Shown here: positions 2,929-19,814 of the stretch, one piece after another
Position numbering within the stretch: the first letter of the stretch is position 1
How the letters are laid out: the number at the start of each line of letters is the position of its first letter
NCBI GenBank assembly: GCA_025355875.1
Contig: JANXYV010000017.1
Span: 1 to 33,149 of the forward strand
Length of the DNA: 33,149 nt
Source: Prolixibacteraceae bacterium
GTDB taxonomy: Bacteria > Bacteroidota > Bacteroidia > Bacteroidales > Prolixibacteraceae
Direction: 5' to 3'
Translations under genes and position numbers: made by a program
The notes under the pieces: model-generated
Seen by the model: only the letters and a program-made list of their open reading frames with translations
Databases searched by the model: none
Told to the model about the DNA's origin: nothing

Positions 2929-2980
2929 TCTTGTTTTTTAAATGGTTAATACATAACCAATGAGGCAAGTAATTCCCTTT

Positions 2981-3076
2981 CGCCATCCCTTCGCCGGCAT
3001 TATCCGTATCAGGTTCGGTGGGTGTGATCTCAGCCTGTAATTACCCCGTCTTTCGGCGGGAAGGCACCCCATTGCG
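2981..3076 (-). ncRNA. TPP riboswitch (THI element)
   Basis: Read on the minus strand, the conserved TPP aptamer elements appear in order: GGGGTGCC, a variable hairpin (CCCGCCGAAAGACGGG), GGCTGAGAT, ACCC, GAACCTGAT, GGATAATGCCGGCGAAGGGA. The closing P1 stem pairs CGCAAT with ATGGCG with one mismatch. It lies 52 nt upstream of the TonB receptor start. The stretch from 2929 to 2980 has only a weak hairpin (GGTTA/TAACC) and no T-tract, so control is more likely at translation or by another mechanism than by a simple intrinsic terminator. Confidence 0.96.
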
Positions 3077-3089
3077 TAAATTGATGGGG

Positions 3090-16006: not shown

Positions 16007-16280
16007 CAACTGTTTACCAGTCGATAATTTTATAACGGAATTATCGGATATACGGTTGATTTGAATAGCAATGGCATTTATGCCGTTGAAAAAATGAATA
16101 ATCTTAATTTTGGCTTTAGCCTAAACATTTAACTAATTTGGGCTAAAGCCGGGATTTGTCGGTTTCCTATTTTCCCTGACCTAAAGGTCAGGGCTATTCA
16201 AAACCAATAAACCGATAATTCCGTTTTATGAAAACTCTTTTCCGAAAAAGCTATGGTTTGGAGAAGAGTTTTCTTATTTT
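16007..16280 (+). promoter_or_regulatory. Hairpin module, copy 1 (upstream of rhuM, interrupted)
   Basis: It matches copy 2 (17415-17492). A first part (16007-16033; CAACTGTTTACCAGTCG then ATAATTTTAT) is 25/27 identical to the second copy. The second part (16230-16273) starts GAAAACTCTTTTCCGAAA and pairs with AAGAGTTTTC (16264-16273), then runs into T-rich sequence. The two parts are split by a 192-bp insertion. The module precedes rhuM by about 60 nt, so it may be a leader, attenuator or operator for that gene. Confidence 0.65.
16034..16225. mobile_element. 192-bp palindromic, MITE-like element
   Basis: The element has perfect 14-bp terminal inverted repeats, AACGGAATTATCGG (16034-16047) and CCGATAATTCCGTT (16212-16225). 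A TTAT is duplicated on both flanks (16030-16033 and 16226-16229); because of the T-rich target the duplication could be 4 to 6 bp. The interior is a set of smaller palindromes: CAATGGCA/TGCCGTTG (16069-16088), GGCTTTAGCC (16112-16121) with GGCTAAAGCC (16141-16150), CCCTGACCT/AGGTCAGGG (16174-16193), and TTTGAATAGC (16060-16069) with GCTATTCAAA (16193-16202). It encodes no protein and would need a transposase from elsewhere. The uninterrupted copy 2 module shows the pre-insertion sequence. Confidence 0.72.
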
Positions 16281-16339: not shown

Positions 16340-17368
16340 ATGAACCAAAACGCATTAAAACCGATAAATAATTTCATGCTCTACACCACGCCCAATGGCG
16401 ATGTAAAACTGGAGGTATTTATTCAGGACGAAACCCTTTGGTTGACCCAAAAAGCAATTGCAACGCTGCTGGATGTTGAGGTTCCGGCGATTAGCAAGCA
16501 TTTGAATAACATTTATGAATCAGGAGAATTGGTGAAAGAGGCAACTATTTCCATTTTGGAAACAGTTCAAAATGAAGGATCCAGGCAAGTCAAACGAAAA
16601 GTCGAATTTTACAACCTCGATGCCATCATTTCTGTGGGTTACCGGGTTAATTCGAGTAAAGCTACACAGTTCAGGATTTGGGCAACGCAGGTTTTGAAAG
16701 AGTATATCATCAAAGGCTTTGCCATGAACGATGTCCGTTTAAAGCAGGGCGACAAAGCGTTTGGGAAGGACTATTTTCGTGAATTGCTCGAACGGGTTCG
16801 CTCAATCAGAACCAGCGAACGACGTATTTACCAGCAGATTACCGATATTTTTGCTGAATGCAGCATCGACTACGACCCGAATTCGGAAATCACGCATAAT
16901 TTTTATGCCACGGTTCAGAACAAATTTCACTACGCCATAACCAAACACACAGCTGCCGAAATCATTTATGATAAAGCGGAACATTCGCAGCCATTTATGG
17001 GACTGACCAATTGGAAAAACGCCCCGGCAGGTCGCATTCTTCCTTCTGATGTAACAGTCGCCAAGAATTACCTTTCTGAAAGCGAAATTCGGCGGTTGGA
17101 ACGGACGATTTCAGGGTTTTTCGATTACATCGAGAATGTCATCGAAAACGAAAACTCATTGACTATGAGCAATATGGTTGTCAATGTCGACCGGTTTCTG
17201 AATTTCAACAAGTTTGAAGTGTTACAGGGCAAAGGCAAAATCTCGAAAAAGGAAGCCGATGGGAAAGCGTTGAATGAGTACGCCGAATACAACAAGACCC
17301 AACCGATTGAATCTGATTTCGATAGAATGATTAAAAGCCTCGGAAATGGGAAGCAGGAAAACACTTAA
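16340..17368 (+). CDS. RhuM family protein
   Basis: A 342-residue protein of the RhuM family. An N-terminal part resembles a phage-type DNA-binding/regulator domain (about 10-125): ETLWLTQKAIATLLDVEVPAISKHL looks like a helix-turn-helix, followed by the hallmark RIWATQVLKEYIIKGFAMND. The C-terminal part (about 130-342) is helical, with YFRELLERVRSIRTSERR and ITHNFYATVQNKFHYAITKHTAAEII typical of the family. RhuM was first noted as a virulence-associated gene in Salmonella; homologues are frequent in restriction-modification and other defence loci, and no activity is established. Here it sits directly upstream of a methyltransferase/nuclease pair. The ATG at 16340 is used; a TTG three codons earlier is less likely. 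Confidence 0.85.
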   Translation: MNQNALKPINNFMLYTTPNGDVKLEVFIQDETLWLTQKAIATLLDVEVPAISKHLNNIYESGELVKEATISILETVQNEGSRQVKRKVEFYNLDAIISVGYRVNSSKATQFRIWATQVLKEYIIKGFAMNDVRLKQGDKAFGKDYFRELLERVRSIRTSERRIYQQITDIFAECSIDYDPNSEITHNFYATVQNKFHYAITKHTAAEIIYDKAEHSQPFMGLTNWKNAPAGRILPSDVTVAKNYLSESEIRRLERTISGFFDYIENVIENENSLTMSNMVVNVDRFLNFNKFEVLQGKGKISKKEADGKALNEYAEYNKTQPIESDFDRMIKSLGNGKQENT

Positions 17369-17414
17369 ACGGATCAATCTTGCTGGTCATTGCCTAAATT
17401 AGTCAGCAAAAAAC

Positions 17415-17492
17415 CAACTGCTTACCAGTTGATAATTTTATGAAAACTCTTCTCCGAAATCGAGGCATTTCGGGGAAGAGTTTTTATATTTA
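17415..17492 (+). promoter_or_regulatory. Hairpin module, copy 2 (between rhuM and the methyltransferase)
   Basis: CAACTG-CTTAC-CAGTTG (17415-17431) is a small hairpin. It is followed by a strong one: AAAACTCTTCTCCGAAAT (17443-17460) pairs with ATTTCGGGGAAGAGTTTT (17467-17484) around CGAGGC, with one T-G pair. A T-tract and a TATATTTA box resembling a -7 element (17485-17492) come next, 47 nt before the methyltransferase start. It could end rhuM transcription, start the methyltransferase operon, or both. It is the uninterrupted version of the copy at 16007-16280. Confidence 0.7.
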
Positions 17493-17538
17493 GCAGAAAT
17501 AAAAACGGATACGGCACAATCAATTAATTAGACAATAC

Positions 17539-18654
17539 ATGGCGAACAGCAACCTCACCAATGCGAAGAATGCAAAAAACGATGAGTTTTATACACAGTA
17601 CCACGATATCGAAAAAGAAATCAATGCCTATATCGATTACAACTCTGATGTGTTCCGGGGTAAAACGGTGCTTTTGCCTTGCGACGACCCGGAGTGGAGT
17701 AACTTCACAAAATTCTTTGCCCAGAATTTTGAGCAATTTGGCCTGAAAAAGCTCATCAGTACCAGTTACGCTGCGGATAGTAAGAAATACAAAATACCCT
17801 ACCAGCCAAGCTTATTTGAAGTGAACGACCCGCAATTCGACTATAATAAAACCACCAAACACGGTAAAATATTTACTTTGACACACGACAAAACCGGCGA
17901 TGGCAAAGTAGATGTGAATGACCTGGAATGGCATTACTTAAAAGGCAATGGAGACTTTAATAGTGATGAAATTAAAAAACTGCGCGACGAAGCCGACATC
18001 ATCATTACCAATCCGCCTTTCTCGATGTTCCGAGAATTTTTAGCATGGATTATTGATGCTGACAAACAGTTTGTAGCAATTGGAAGCATGAATGCCATTA
18101 CTTATACAGAAGTCTTTCCACTTATCAAGGAGAATAAGGTTTGGTTGGGAGCAACTGGTTTTGGCAGTGACATGGTTTTTGCTGTACCAAAAGATGCTGA
18201 AGTTGATGAGAAAGACAGACAGAAAGCTGCGAGACTTGGATATGTGGGCGATTATACCAGACTTGGAAATTCATGTTGGTTTACCAACCTGGATCATGGT
18301 CGACGTCACAAACCTCTATCACTTTTGCCAATGGCGGACATAATAAAGTTTGGCAGTAAAAAGCCTTTTGAAAGATATGACAACTATGATGCAATAGAAG
18401 TCCCATTTGTTAAATATATCCCAAGTGATTTCGATGGAGTGATGGGAGTACCGATTAGCTTTCTTGATAAATATAGTCCGGAGCAATTCGAAATAATTGG
18501 TTCAAATTTAACACATGGGATACCTATGGCTACGATTGCAAAGAAAGGAACATATGCTCAAGGTGGTCCAAGTTTTTATACTGGCAATGGTGACGGCACT
18601 TTTAAGCGAATATATACACGGATAATCATCAAACACAAAAGCATCAAAAAATGA
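17539..18654 (+). CDS. EcoRI-type adenine-specific DNA methyltransferase
   Basis: A 371-residue enzyme predicted to transfer a methyl group from S-adenosylmethionine to adenine N6 in a short DNA site. The N-terminus ([26 protein letters not shown], then [19 protein letters not shown]) is the signature of the EcoRI methylase family, and the catalytic motif IV is [13 protein letters not shown] with Asn158-Pro-Pro-Phe161. The protein is somewhat longer than M.EcoRI (about 325 residues). Its stop overlaps the next gene by ATGA, so it is translationally coupled to the DUF262-HNH nuclease; no EcoRI-type endonuclease is seen. From about 18040 onward the DNA is more AT-rich and uses AGA arginine codons, unlike the first half, which suggests a mosaic origin. 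The recognition site cannot be predicted from sequence. Confidence 0.88.
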
Positions 18655-19814
18655 TAACAACGCTCAAAACCAAAATCACTGTCGCAGATATTTGCGAAGG
18701 CTTTGTCTATAACGAACTCGAAGGCAAGGGGCTGTTTGGCCTTTCGGGCAAATTAACCATACAGCCGGAGTATCAGCGTAACTATATTTATGCCGACGGC
18801 AAACGCGATGTGGCCGTTATTGAATCCATCCTCAAGGGCTACCCGCTGGGTTTAATTTACTTTGTGAAGGTGAACGACAATAAGCTTGAAATTCTTGACG
18901 GACAACAACGCGTTACCAGTTTCGGAAGGTATGTAACCAACAAGTTTGCCGTAAAGGACGAACATGGCATGGAGCAATATTTCAGCGGTATTGCAGCCGA
19001 CAAGCAGGCCCGGATTCTGGAAACAAAACTCACCATTTACGAATGTGAAGGCGAAGAAAGCGAGATCAAACAATGGTTTCGCACCATTAATATTGCCGGT
19101 GTTCCACTCAATAATCAGGAATTATTGAATGCCATTTTCTCAGGGCCGTTTGTTACGCTCGGCAAGGAGGAGTTTAGCAACAGCCAAAATGCCAACATTC
19201 AAAAATGGAGCGCTTACGTTTCGGGAAGCGCCAACCGGCAGGAGTTTCTGGAATGCGCTTTGGATTGGGTGAGCAAGAGAAATATCGACGATTATATGAG
19301 TCGCCACCGCTACGACACGAACATCAAGGAATTGAAAACCTATTTCAATAGCGTGATTGATTGGGTTTCGGGCGTATTTAAAGATGTTGAAAAAGAAATG
19401 TGTGGTTTGGAATGGGGGCGGTTGTACGAAACTTATCACAAGAAAGCTTACGATCCGGCTAAAGTTTCGACCGAAGTGCAGCAACTCTATGGCGACCTGT
19501 ATATCAAAAACCGAAAAGGAATCTTTGAATACATTCTCGGCGGTTCAACCGACACCAAATTGTTAGAAGTCCGGGTTTTTGATGATGCAACCAAGAAATC
19601 AGTTTATTCAACTCAGACTGCTGTTGCTGTAGCTAAAGGTGAATCGAACTGTCCGCTTTGCGCCATTGGACATGATGCCAACAAGAGTAAAATCTGGAAG
19701 CTGGCCGACATGGATGCCGACCACGTTGCGGCTTGGAGCAAAGGTGGTGCAACAGACGCCGGAAACTGCCAGATGTTGTGTAAGACACACAATCGGGCAA
19801 AAGGAAACCGGTAG
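18651..19814 (+). CDS. DUF262 (DGQQR) protein with C-terminal HNH nuclease
   Basis: A 387-residue, two-part protein. The N-terminal DUF262/ParB-like half (about 10-210) begins [25 protein letters not shown] and carries the nucleotide-binding/hydrolysis motif DGQQR at 83-87. The C-terminal HNH domain (about 330-387) has a zinc pair CPLC (334-337), the catalytic DADHV (Asp357, His358), Asn372 in AGNCQ, and [11 protein letters not shown] with Cys377, His380 and Asn381. All HNH metal and catalytic residues look intact. DUF262-HNH proteins such as GmrSD, SspE and BrxU act as nucleotide-regulated nucleases in phage defence, usually sensing DNA modification. This one overlaps the upstream methyltransferase stop by 4 nt (ATGA), which strongly suggests it is the matching effector. 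The exact target (unmethylated or methylated DNA) is not known. Confidence 0.87.

Follow-up and report, generated by a model that had tools for sequence, protein, structure and literature searches.

The contig JANXYV010000017.1 of a Prolixibacteraceae bacterium (assembly GCA_025355875.1, 5.18 Mb in 230 contigs) was analysed over positions 1 to 33,149, in the following called the window. It carries a gene for an EcoRI-family DNA adenine methyltransferase (MTase), directly followed by a gene for a nuclease which combines a DUF262 domain with a C-terminal HNH domain. Comparison of this gene pair with its relatives suggests, with a probability of roughly 0.6, a two-gene mobile restriction-modification module whose sequence specificity resides in the MTase only. 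The nuclease would be agnostic to the target sequence and would be directed by the MTase, most likely, or by the methyl mark in a manner similar to SspE. This reading is built on sequence comparison, namely on the conserved pair, its mobility, the exchange of MTase blocks beside a constant nuclease, a control with true EcoRI systems and alternative MTase endings encoded in different reading frames.

Conservation and mobility of the gene pair

The survey comprised 178 nuclease loci, i.e. the best 80 of 373 relatives on genome contigs, the best 80 of 152 relatives on viral contigs, 17 loci from a phylum draw and the window, a sampling that favours close relatives of the window nuclease. An MTase, counted as present at a match above 200 bits, was found in 164 of the 178 loci, and 11 of the remaining 14 are contig edges. 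The gap measured between both matches was at most 60 nt in 139 loci, 60–300 nt in 12 and 300–1500 nt in another 12, while the order of the genes was reversed in L186. In the phylum draw (296 genomes) 18 full-length nuclease hits (E < 1e-60) were obtained from 13 genomes. By coordinates a PF13651 hit adjoins 17 of these 18, one of them partial (G270:C145), and the last nuclease starts at a contig end, preceded by a fragment of an MTase. A further ten hits were weaker and cover part of the DUF262 domain only. The two-gene unit proposed in the initial annotation of the window holds in this co-occurrence survey, which supports a conserved two-gene module of the restriction-modification kind. As the annotation had also stated, there is no EcoRI-like endonuclease: no match was found in the window's own genome and none beside the MTase in the 178 nuclease loci.

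Five fetched MTases from the phylum draw have no such nuclease in the stretch examined (L050–L054). Two of them lie beside an EcoRI-like endonuclease (L052 and L053, the latter cut by the contig end), L050 looks solitary and L054 is accompanied by genes that read as phage-like. L051 was rejected as a solitary MTase, since its downstream side, where the nuclease would lie, ends with the contig; two more MTase fragments at contig ends were not fetched.

According to the record titles the hosts belong to Bacteroidota, Anaerolineales, Patescibacteria, Actinobacteria, Proteobacteria, Clostridia and others, many of them metagenome bins. Finished replicons include 9–10 kb plasmids of Moraxella, Pediococcus and Apilactobacillus, conjugative plasmids and the Flavobacterium phage laban6-1. 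Furthermore, the pair was found on six of 5426 E. coli chromosomes; in E. coli 2015C-3121 (L272) the nuclease gene is split by IS1 next to an intact MTase. The window's own genome harbours a second complete pair on contig C148 (L002/L055), whose nuclease and MTase are 42% and 43% identical to those of the window; a gene reading as PHP- and ATPase-like lies directly 3' of it. In L046, L048 and L136 the nuclease is intact, and the MTase next to it is either out of frame or devoid of its N-terminal part. L188 (3600–5000) was removed from these damaged cases: three stops interrupt its MTase frame, but each is a TGA at a tryptophan-like place. The nuclease of this locus contains no stops, and the host perhaps reads TGA as an amino acid.

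Putative recognition blocks are exchanged beside a constant nuclease

The conservation profile of the MTase exhibits two hypervariable blocks, which we interpret as putative target-recognition regions (TRD1 and TRD2), and the profile of the nuclease exhibits none. For a comparison of both proteins we used the 149 of 164 pairs in which both are near full length, minus five near-duplicates, resulting in 144 pairs. Over 6156 comparisons of nucleases at least 55% identical, the Spearman coefficient of nuclease identity was 0.005 with TRD1 identity and 0.014 with TRD2 identity. In 62 loci the nearest nuclease is at least 80% identical, and in these TRD1 falls below 40% identity in 46 and TRD2 in 51, both regions agreeing (at least 60%) in only 9. 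The two blocks also move independently of each other, as illustrated by L056 and L058 (TRD1 11%, TRD2 86% identical).

The same was analysed as the number of class changes on the nuclease tree (FastTree, single-member classes excluded). The TRD1 class (128 rows, 15 classes) changes 75 times, compared with 14 changes if it were never swapped and 84–97 (mean 91) in 100 shuffles; the TRD2 class (86 rows, 22 classes) changes 57 times, the shuffles giving 65–73. For comparison, the class of the MTase N-terminal core (core1) changes 9 times, with shuffled means of 24 and 38 at two thresholds. The two genes therefore travel together, and the blocks are exchanged nearly, not wholly, at random.

Individual pairs of loci unveil the same pattern. 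In an alignment of the window with L056 in 60-nt blocks, the N-terminal half of the MTase gene is 72–92% and the nuclease gene 70–100% identical, compared with 50% and 32% for TRD1 (blocks from 18140 and 18200) and 43–45% for TRD2 (18500–18619); at the protein level the two nucleases are 90% identical. This alignment is informative about a horizontal mosaic of the window MTase, whereas G+C content alone was not. Within a single genome (G212) the nucleases of L043 and L044 are 97% identical, with 8 of their 10 differences in the first 16 residues, and their TRD1 and TRD2 are 14% and 5% identical. From complete E. coli genomes, L267 and L269 share 98% of the nuclease (7 amino acids, 19 nt) and 100% of core1, and TRD1 and TRD2 are only 20% and 24% identical; L267 and L270 have fully identical TRDs and more distant nucleases (14 amino acids, 44 nt). 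No hidden specificity segment was found in the nuclease, the differences being spread much alike in pairs with the same (13) and with different TRDs (196). By genomic comparison, a coupling of nuclease and MTase specificities as in type II systems was not observed.

Two tandem MTase genes precede one nuclease in L144, L163 and L194, and L106 contains an extra MTase C-terminal fragment (19–333). These are possible donors for TRD exchange.

In order to relate these values to a nuclease that reads its own site, a control set of 11 loci with an EcoRI-type restriction endonuclease (REase) and its MTase was compiled, ten of them distinct (L216 equals L217). Seven of 19 plasmid records were fetched, picked for diversity, and the EcoRI-REase loci L219, L228 and L229 were left out as they gave no PF13651 match. 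In all 55 comparisons TRD1 (62–100%) and TRD2 (67–100%) were similar, and the nine full-length control REases are 58–100% identical, lower figures resulting from the truncated L053 and L220. EcoRI-like TRD1s (62–68% identical) also occur beside the DUF262-HNH nuclease (L034, L059, L060, L124, L154 and L183), where they are joined to other TRD2s. Consequently, the control indicates that a nuclease reading its own site goes with kept TRDs and that the DUF262-HNH nuclease does not. On a Rhodococcus plasmid (L227, 3001–6825) a true EcoRI pair is followed by a separate, distant DUF262 gene.

Slippable repeats lead into alternative MTase endings

A scan of 170 loci for simple repeats gave 11 in 196 kb of the stretch from MTase to nuclease and one in 194 kb of nuclease. 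At TRD2, repeats were found in L077 ((GA)13), L090 ((AG)8), L160 ((GAACA)7), L177 ((GA)6) and L180 ((CA)21); the window MTase has no slippable repeat at this place. In L077, L090, L160 and L180 all three frames behind the repeat run to an MTase-like C-terminus, and in L177 two frames do, the frame of the assembly stopping at once. Among the 147 of 178 loci in which alternative frames could be examined for the C-terminal motif (31 were skipped), exactly these five carry it in both alternative frames. Behind an A8 tract, L039 has it in a single alternative frame, and the other 141 loci lack it in both; in the annotated frame it was found in 129 of the 147. Furthermore, a G-tract lies before TRD2 in L046, L047 and L049. 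With nine G (G9) L047 and L049 are in frame; L046 (G10) is out of frame, and its nuclease is intact.

These arrangements may reflect repeat switching in the MTase. With a nuclease of fixed target such switching would leave the host exposed. In viral contigs two pattern scans yielded three stretches, namely the new L256 and two contigs already in the set. In L256 a repeat (2011–2030) lies in an EcoRI-family MTase gene with two frame-encoded endings, possibly the phage's own switchable protective MTase. A scan of 13 plasmid, phage or phage-like relatives beside L256 gave, at the thresholds applied, no repeat within TRD2.

Proposed mechanism and alternative explanations

The AlphaFold2 model of the nuclease (82 sequences) reached a pLDDT of 86.6 and a pTM of 0.65. 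Besides the best match (see below), weak Foldseek matches were obtained with nucleotide-bound ParB and, for the HNH part, with the HNH nickase 4h9d and EcoKMcrA (6ghc). Neither Pfam nor Foldseek indicated a further DNA-recognition domain in the nuclease. A search by sequence gave no solved relative at a meaningful E-value for MTase or nuclease, and the fold search with the MTase model returned mostly generic methyltransferases, all weak.

In the mechanism which we favour, the MTase would find its target via the two exchangeable recognition regions and methylate it in self DNA. At unmethylated targets it would bring in or license the DUF262-HNH protein, which would have no target specificity of its own, and a nucleoside triphosphate (NTP)-dependent step of the DUF262 domain with its DGQQR motif would then free the HNH domain to cut. 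Contact between the proteins, use of NTP and DNA cleavage are predicted steps of this scheme. Its logic would resemble that of type I and III systems, with one recognition protein for modification and restriction and without a helicase motor. No ATP-dependent helicase or translocase was detected by Pfam in the window's pair, rhuM and four further neighbours.

More tentatively, and with less confidence than in the module as such, one may think of a motor-free class of restriction in which the MTase is the sole reader of the target, the nucleotide-dependent DUF262-HNH effector with its ParB/Srx fold is loaded at unmethylated sites in a clamp-like manner, taking the place of a helicase, and, in some lineages, the MTase carries a ternary switch. 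Slippage of the repeat would then pick among TRD2 modules written in the reading frames of one DNA stretch, so that one constant nuclease would serve several targets, with no OFF frame in four of the five cases.

Several observations weigh against the MTase as the sole and switchable guide of the nuclease. The TRD1 and TRD2 class changes (75 and 57) stay below every shuffle (minima 84 and 65), and some co-inheritance with the nuclease remains; the naming of both regions, moreover, is based on their variability and on the EcoRI control rather than on a structure. The upstream flanks are equally rich in repeats (24 in 403 kb), and repeat density alone proves little. Tract-length variants of one locus were not found, i.e. 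switching was not seen, and the repeat-bearing MTase of the viral contig L256 has no DUF262-HNH gene within the 5.7 kb examined. Contact of the two proteins is unsupported by gene fusion (none in 178 loci), and the Foldseek matches of the nuclease are weak, the best one (BrxU) having an E-value of 5e-3. In L041 and L272 the nuclease is broken beside an intact MTase. Finally, many loci stem from metagenome assemblies, and errors of assembly may account for MTases out of frame, for truncations and for homopolymer counts.

The strongest competitor, though in our view rather unlikely, is licensing in the manner of SspE. Here the nuclease would sense the N6-methyladenine (m6A) self mark in any context, the mark would stimulate its NTPase and license the cutting of unmarked DNA, and the MTase would be only the writer. 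In SspE (PMC13251355) the domain order is the same (DUF262 with DGQQR, C-terminal HNH), GTP hydrolysis triggered by the self mark is reported to license the HNH domain, and the protein is described as stimulated by the mark and as non-toxic without it. Licensing by the mark would explain intact nucleases beside damaged MTases, and it accounts for the decoupling of the TRDs as well, which is a further point against guidance by the MTase. However, the DNA of E. coli is full of Dam m6A, and the pair occurs on six chromosomes of this species, IS1 splitting the nuclease in one of them; a context-blind sensor would be triggered there constantly. The free diversification of the TRDs, too, suggests that the target itself is under selection. 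Guidance by the MTase is preferred over licensing by the mark for these two reasons, namely the presence of the system in Dam-rich E. coli and the diversity of the TRDs, which implies a role of the target.

An orthodox type II system would require that the nuclease itself recognises the site of the MTase and that few residues retune it after each change of the MTase. As a two-gene unit that is found on small plasmids, the pair resembles a typical type II system, and PADLOC files the nuclease as REase_II. Such retuning is nevertheless improbable in view of TRD identities that are independent of nuclease identity, of the opposite behaviour of the EcoRI control and of L267 and L269, where 7 scattered nuclease residues would have to follow TRDs that are 20–24% identical. 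Alternative MTase C-termini, frame-encoded beside one nuclease, argue in the same direction.

We regard a guard or toxin-antitoxin arrangement as implausible, too. In this case the MTase protein, or methylation of a promoter, would restrain a nonspecific nuclease, which a phage interfering with methylation would set free. Such an arrangement would fit the gene order (MTase first, nuclease second), the tight linkage and the lack of a hypervariable block in the nuclease, but it does not readily explain why two blocks should be shuffled independently. Moreover, if the damage to the MTases of L046, L048 and L136 is not an assembly error, the intact nucleases of these loci would kill their hosts.

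Genes of the window and their context

As outlined in Table 1, the gene positions and the NPPF motif given in the initial annotation were confirmed, as was the overlap of MTase stop and nuclease start by ATGA (18651–18654). The catalytic motifs of both proteins are intact, and the DUF262 domain with DGQQR and the intact HNH domain, both noted earlier, were recovered as Pfam domains with invariant key residues. In PADLOC-DB the MTase gave an end-to-end match to MTase_II PDLC03297 (302 bits) and the nuclease to REase_II PDLC03418 (279 bits), together with a partial match to NsnA. No NCBIfam family scored above its cut-off for either protein.

Table 1 Location of the genes, motifs and domains discussed in the text (window coordinates).
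Feature	Position	Strand	Evidence and remarks
rhuM	16340..17368	+	ATG at 16340, stop at 17368; PF13310, 355 bits; judged a neighbour outside the system
EcoRI-family DNA adenine MTase, 371 aa	17539..18654	+	Pfam PF13651 EcoRI_methylase, 410 bits, full length
MTase catalytic motif NPPF, residues 158-161	18010..18021	+	invariant in alignment A4 (71 sequences)
MTase hypervariable block TRD1, residues ~205-244, putative target-recognition region	18151..18270	+	conservation dip
MTase hypervariable block TRD2, residues ~321-358, putative target-recognition region	18499..18612	+	conservation dip
DUF262-HNH nuclease, 387 aa	18651..19814	+	PF03235 GmrSD_N, 75 bits; PF01844 HNH, 28 bits
Nuclease DGQQR motif, residues 83-87, in ParB/Srx-like DUF262 domain	18897..18911	+	invariant in alignment A3 (82 sequences)
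Nuclease C-terminal HNH domain, residues 334-387	19650..19811	+	D357, H358 and N372 invariant in A3

The gene rhuM lies directly upstream of the MTase on the same strand, and RhuM had initially been read as a regulator or accessory, which would make a three-gene system. Genes that read as BRO-N-like or ORF6N-like, i.e. of the same broad kind as RhuM, indeed stand between MTase and nuclease in L170 (4127–4978), L171 (2469–3320) and L122 (4405–4992). This reading can hardly be maintained, however. A phmmer search found RhuM in none of 182 other loci (177 with nuclease; flanks of up to some kb, many ending at contig ends), and in the congener G301 (L245) the same slot, behind a dienelactone hydrolase gene, holds a rhuM (86% identical) with neither MTase nor nuclease. 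On these two grounds RhuM was rejected as a system component. Neither rhuM nor the pair occurs in the remaining ten congener regions within the extent that these cover.

A terminator-like hairpin separates rhuM from the MTase gene. Furthermore, two copies of a hairpin repeat of ~80 nt bracket rhuM (16007–16280 and 17415–17491), and related copies occur in 9 of 11 congener regions around the dienelactone hydrolase gene. Because RhuM is absent from the other loci searched, occurs pair-less in G301 and is bracketed by the hairpin repeats, the slot seems to be a variable one that carries rhuM and the MTase-nuclease pair as separate cargo. As judged by reading, the upstream repeat copy is split by an element of ~185 nt (16031–16228) similar to a miniature inverted-repeat transposable element, with terminal inverted repeats (AACGGAATTATCGG) and a TTTTAT duplication. 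At a distance from the pair, a thiamine pyrophosphate riboswitch (2969–3081, minus strand) precedes a gene which reads as TonB-dependent receptor-like.

Comparison with known systems

The pair, its TRD exchange and the frame-encoded TRD2 modules were not found described in the open-licence PubMed Central literature searched, and a search for NsnA gave nothing relevant. The parts available of PMC4619093, PMC12707154, PMC4978471 and PMC7785942 do not describe this pair. An HNH enzyme is treated in PMC8989522, whose accessible part makes no mention of DUF262, and the two restriction-modification systems of a Psychrobacter plasmid are, in the part available of PMC3346939, of the unrelated C5 type. 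The initial statement that no described system has this composition thus stands for the pair in the literature searched, and falls short in that PADLOC already files both families as type II (PDLC03297 and PDLC03418); the names of these models are silent on where specificity lies. Taken singly, DUF262-HNH effectors, TRD exchange and phase-variable MTases are known already. What appears to be new, as far as the literature searched goes, is their combination in an EcoRI-type system of two genes, in which the DUF262-HNH nuclease would be specificity-agnostic and some members have alternative TRDs encoded in different frames.

If the favoured reading is correct, a family filed as ordinary type II would be a compact system that is retargetable by exchanging ~40 residues in one or two MTase blocks, a ready-made nuclease following the MTase to its new target. 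It would account for the targeting of DUF262-HNH effectors of this kind and would provide a natural source of exchangeable recognition modules. Immunity would, furthermore, be diversified in an unusual way if every reading frame behind a single slippable repeat coded for a different recognition module.

With the EcoRI system the pair shares the MTase family (PF13651), the adjacent nuclease gene and the location on mobile plasmids, but R.EcoRI is replaced here by the DUF262-HNH protein, and the TRDs, kept in EcoRI pairs, are free. In analogy to SspE, GmrSD and BrxU, the latter being the best, though weak, Foldseek match, the nuclease combines a DUF262 domain containing DGQQR with a C-terminal HNH-type nuclease; unlike these, it has 387 residues and the Pfam HNH domain PF01844 instead of DUF1524, and it neighbours an MTase of the m6A type. 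In type I (HsdMSR) and type III (Mod/Res) systems recognition lies on the modification side, TRDs are exchanged, repeats render the MTase phase-variable and the restriction subunit is constant. The present pair exhibits such a genomic signature, with TRD exchange, repeats in the MTase genes of some members and a constant nuclease, and one recognition protein may serve modification and restriction here, too. In contrast to type I and III, the pair has no helicase or translocase, the TRDs lie inside an EcoRI-type MTase and the repeats give access to alternative MTase endings and not just to an on and an off state, and in this sense the pair would represent the type I/III logic in two genes without a motor.

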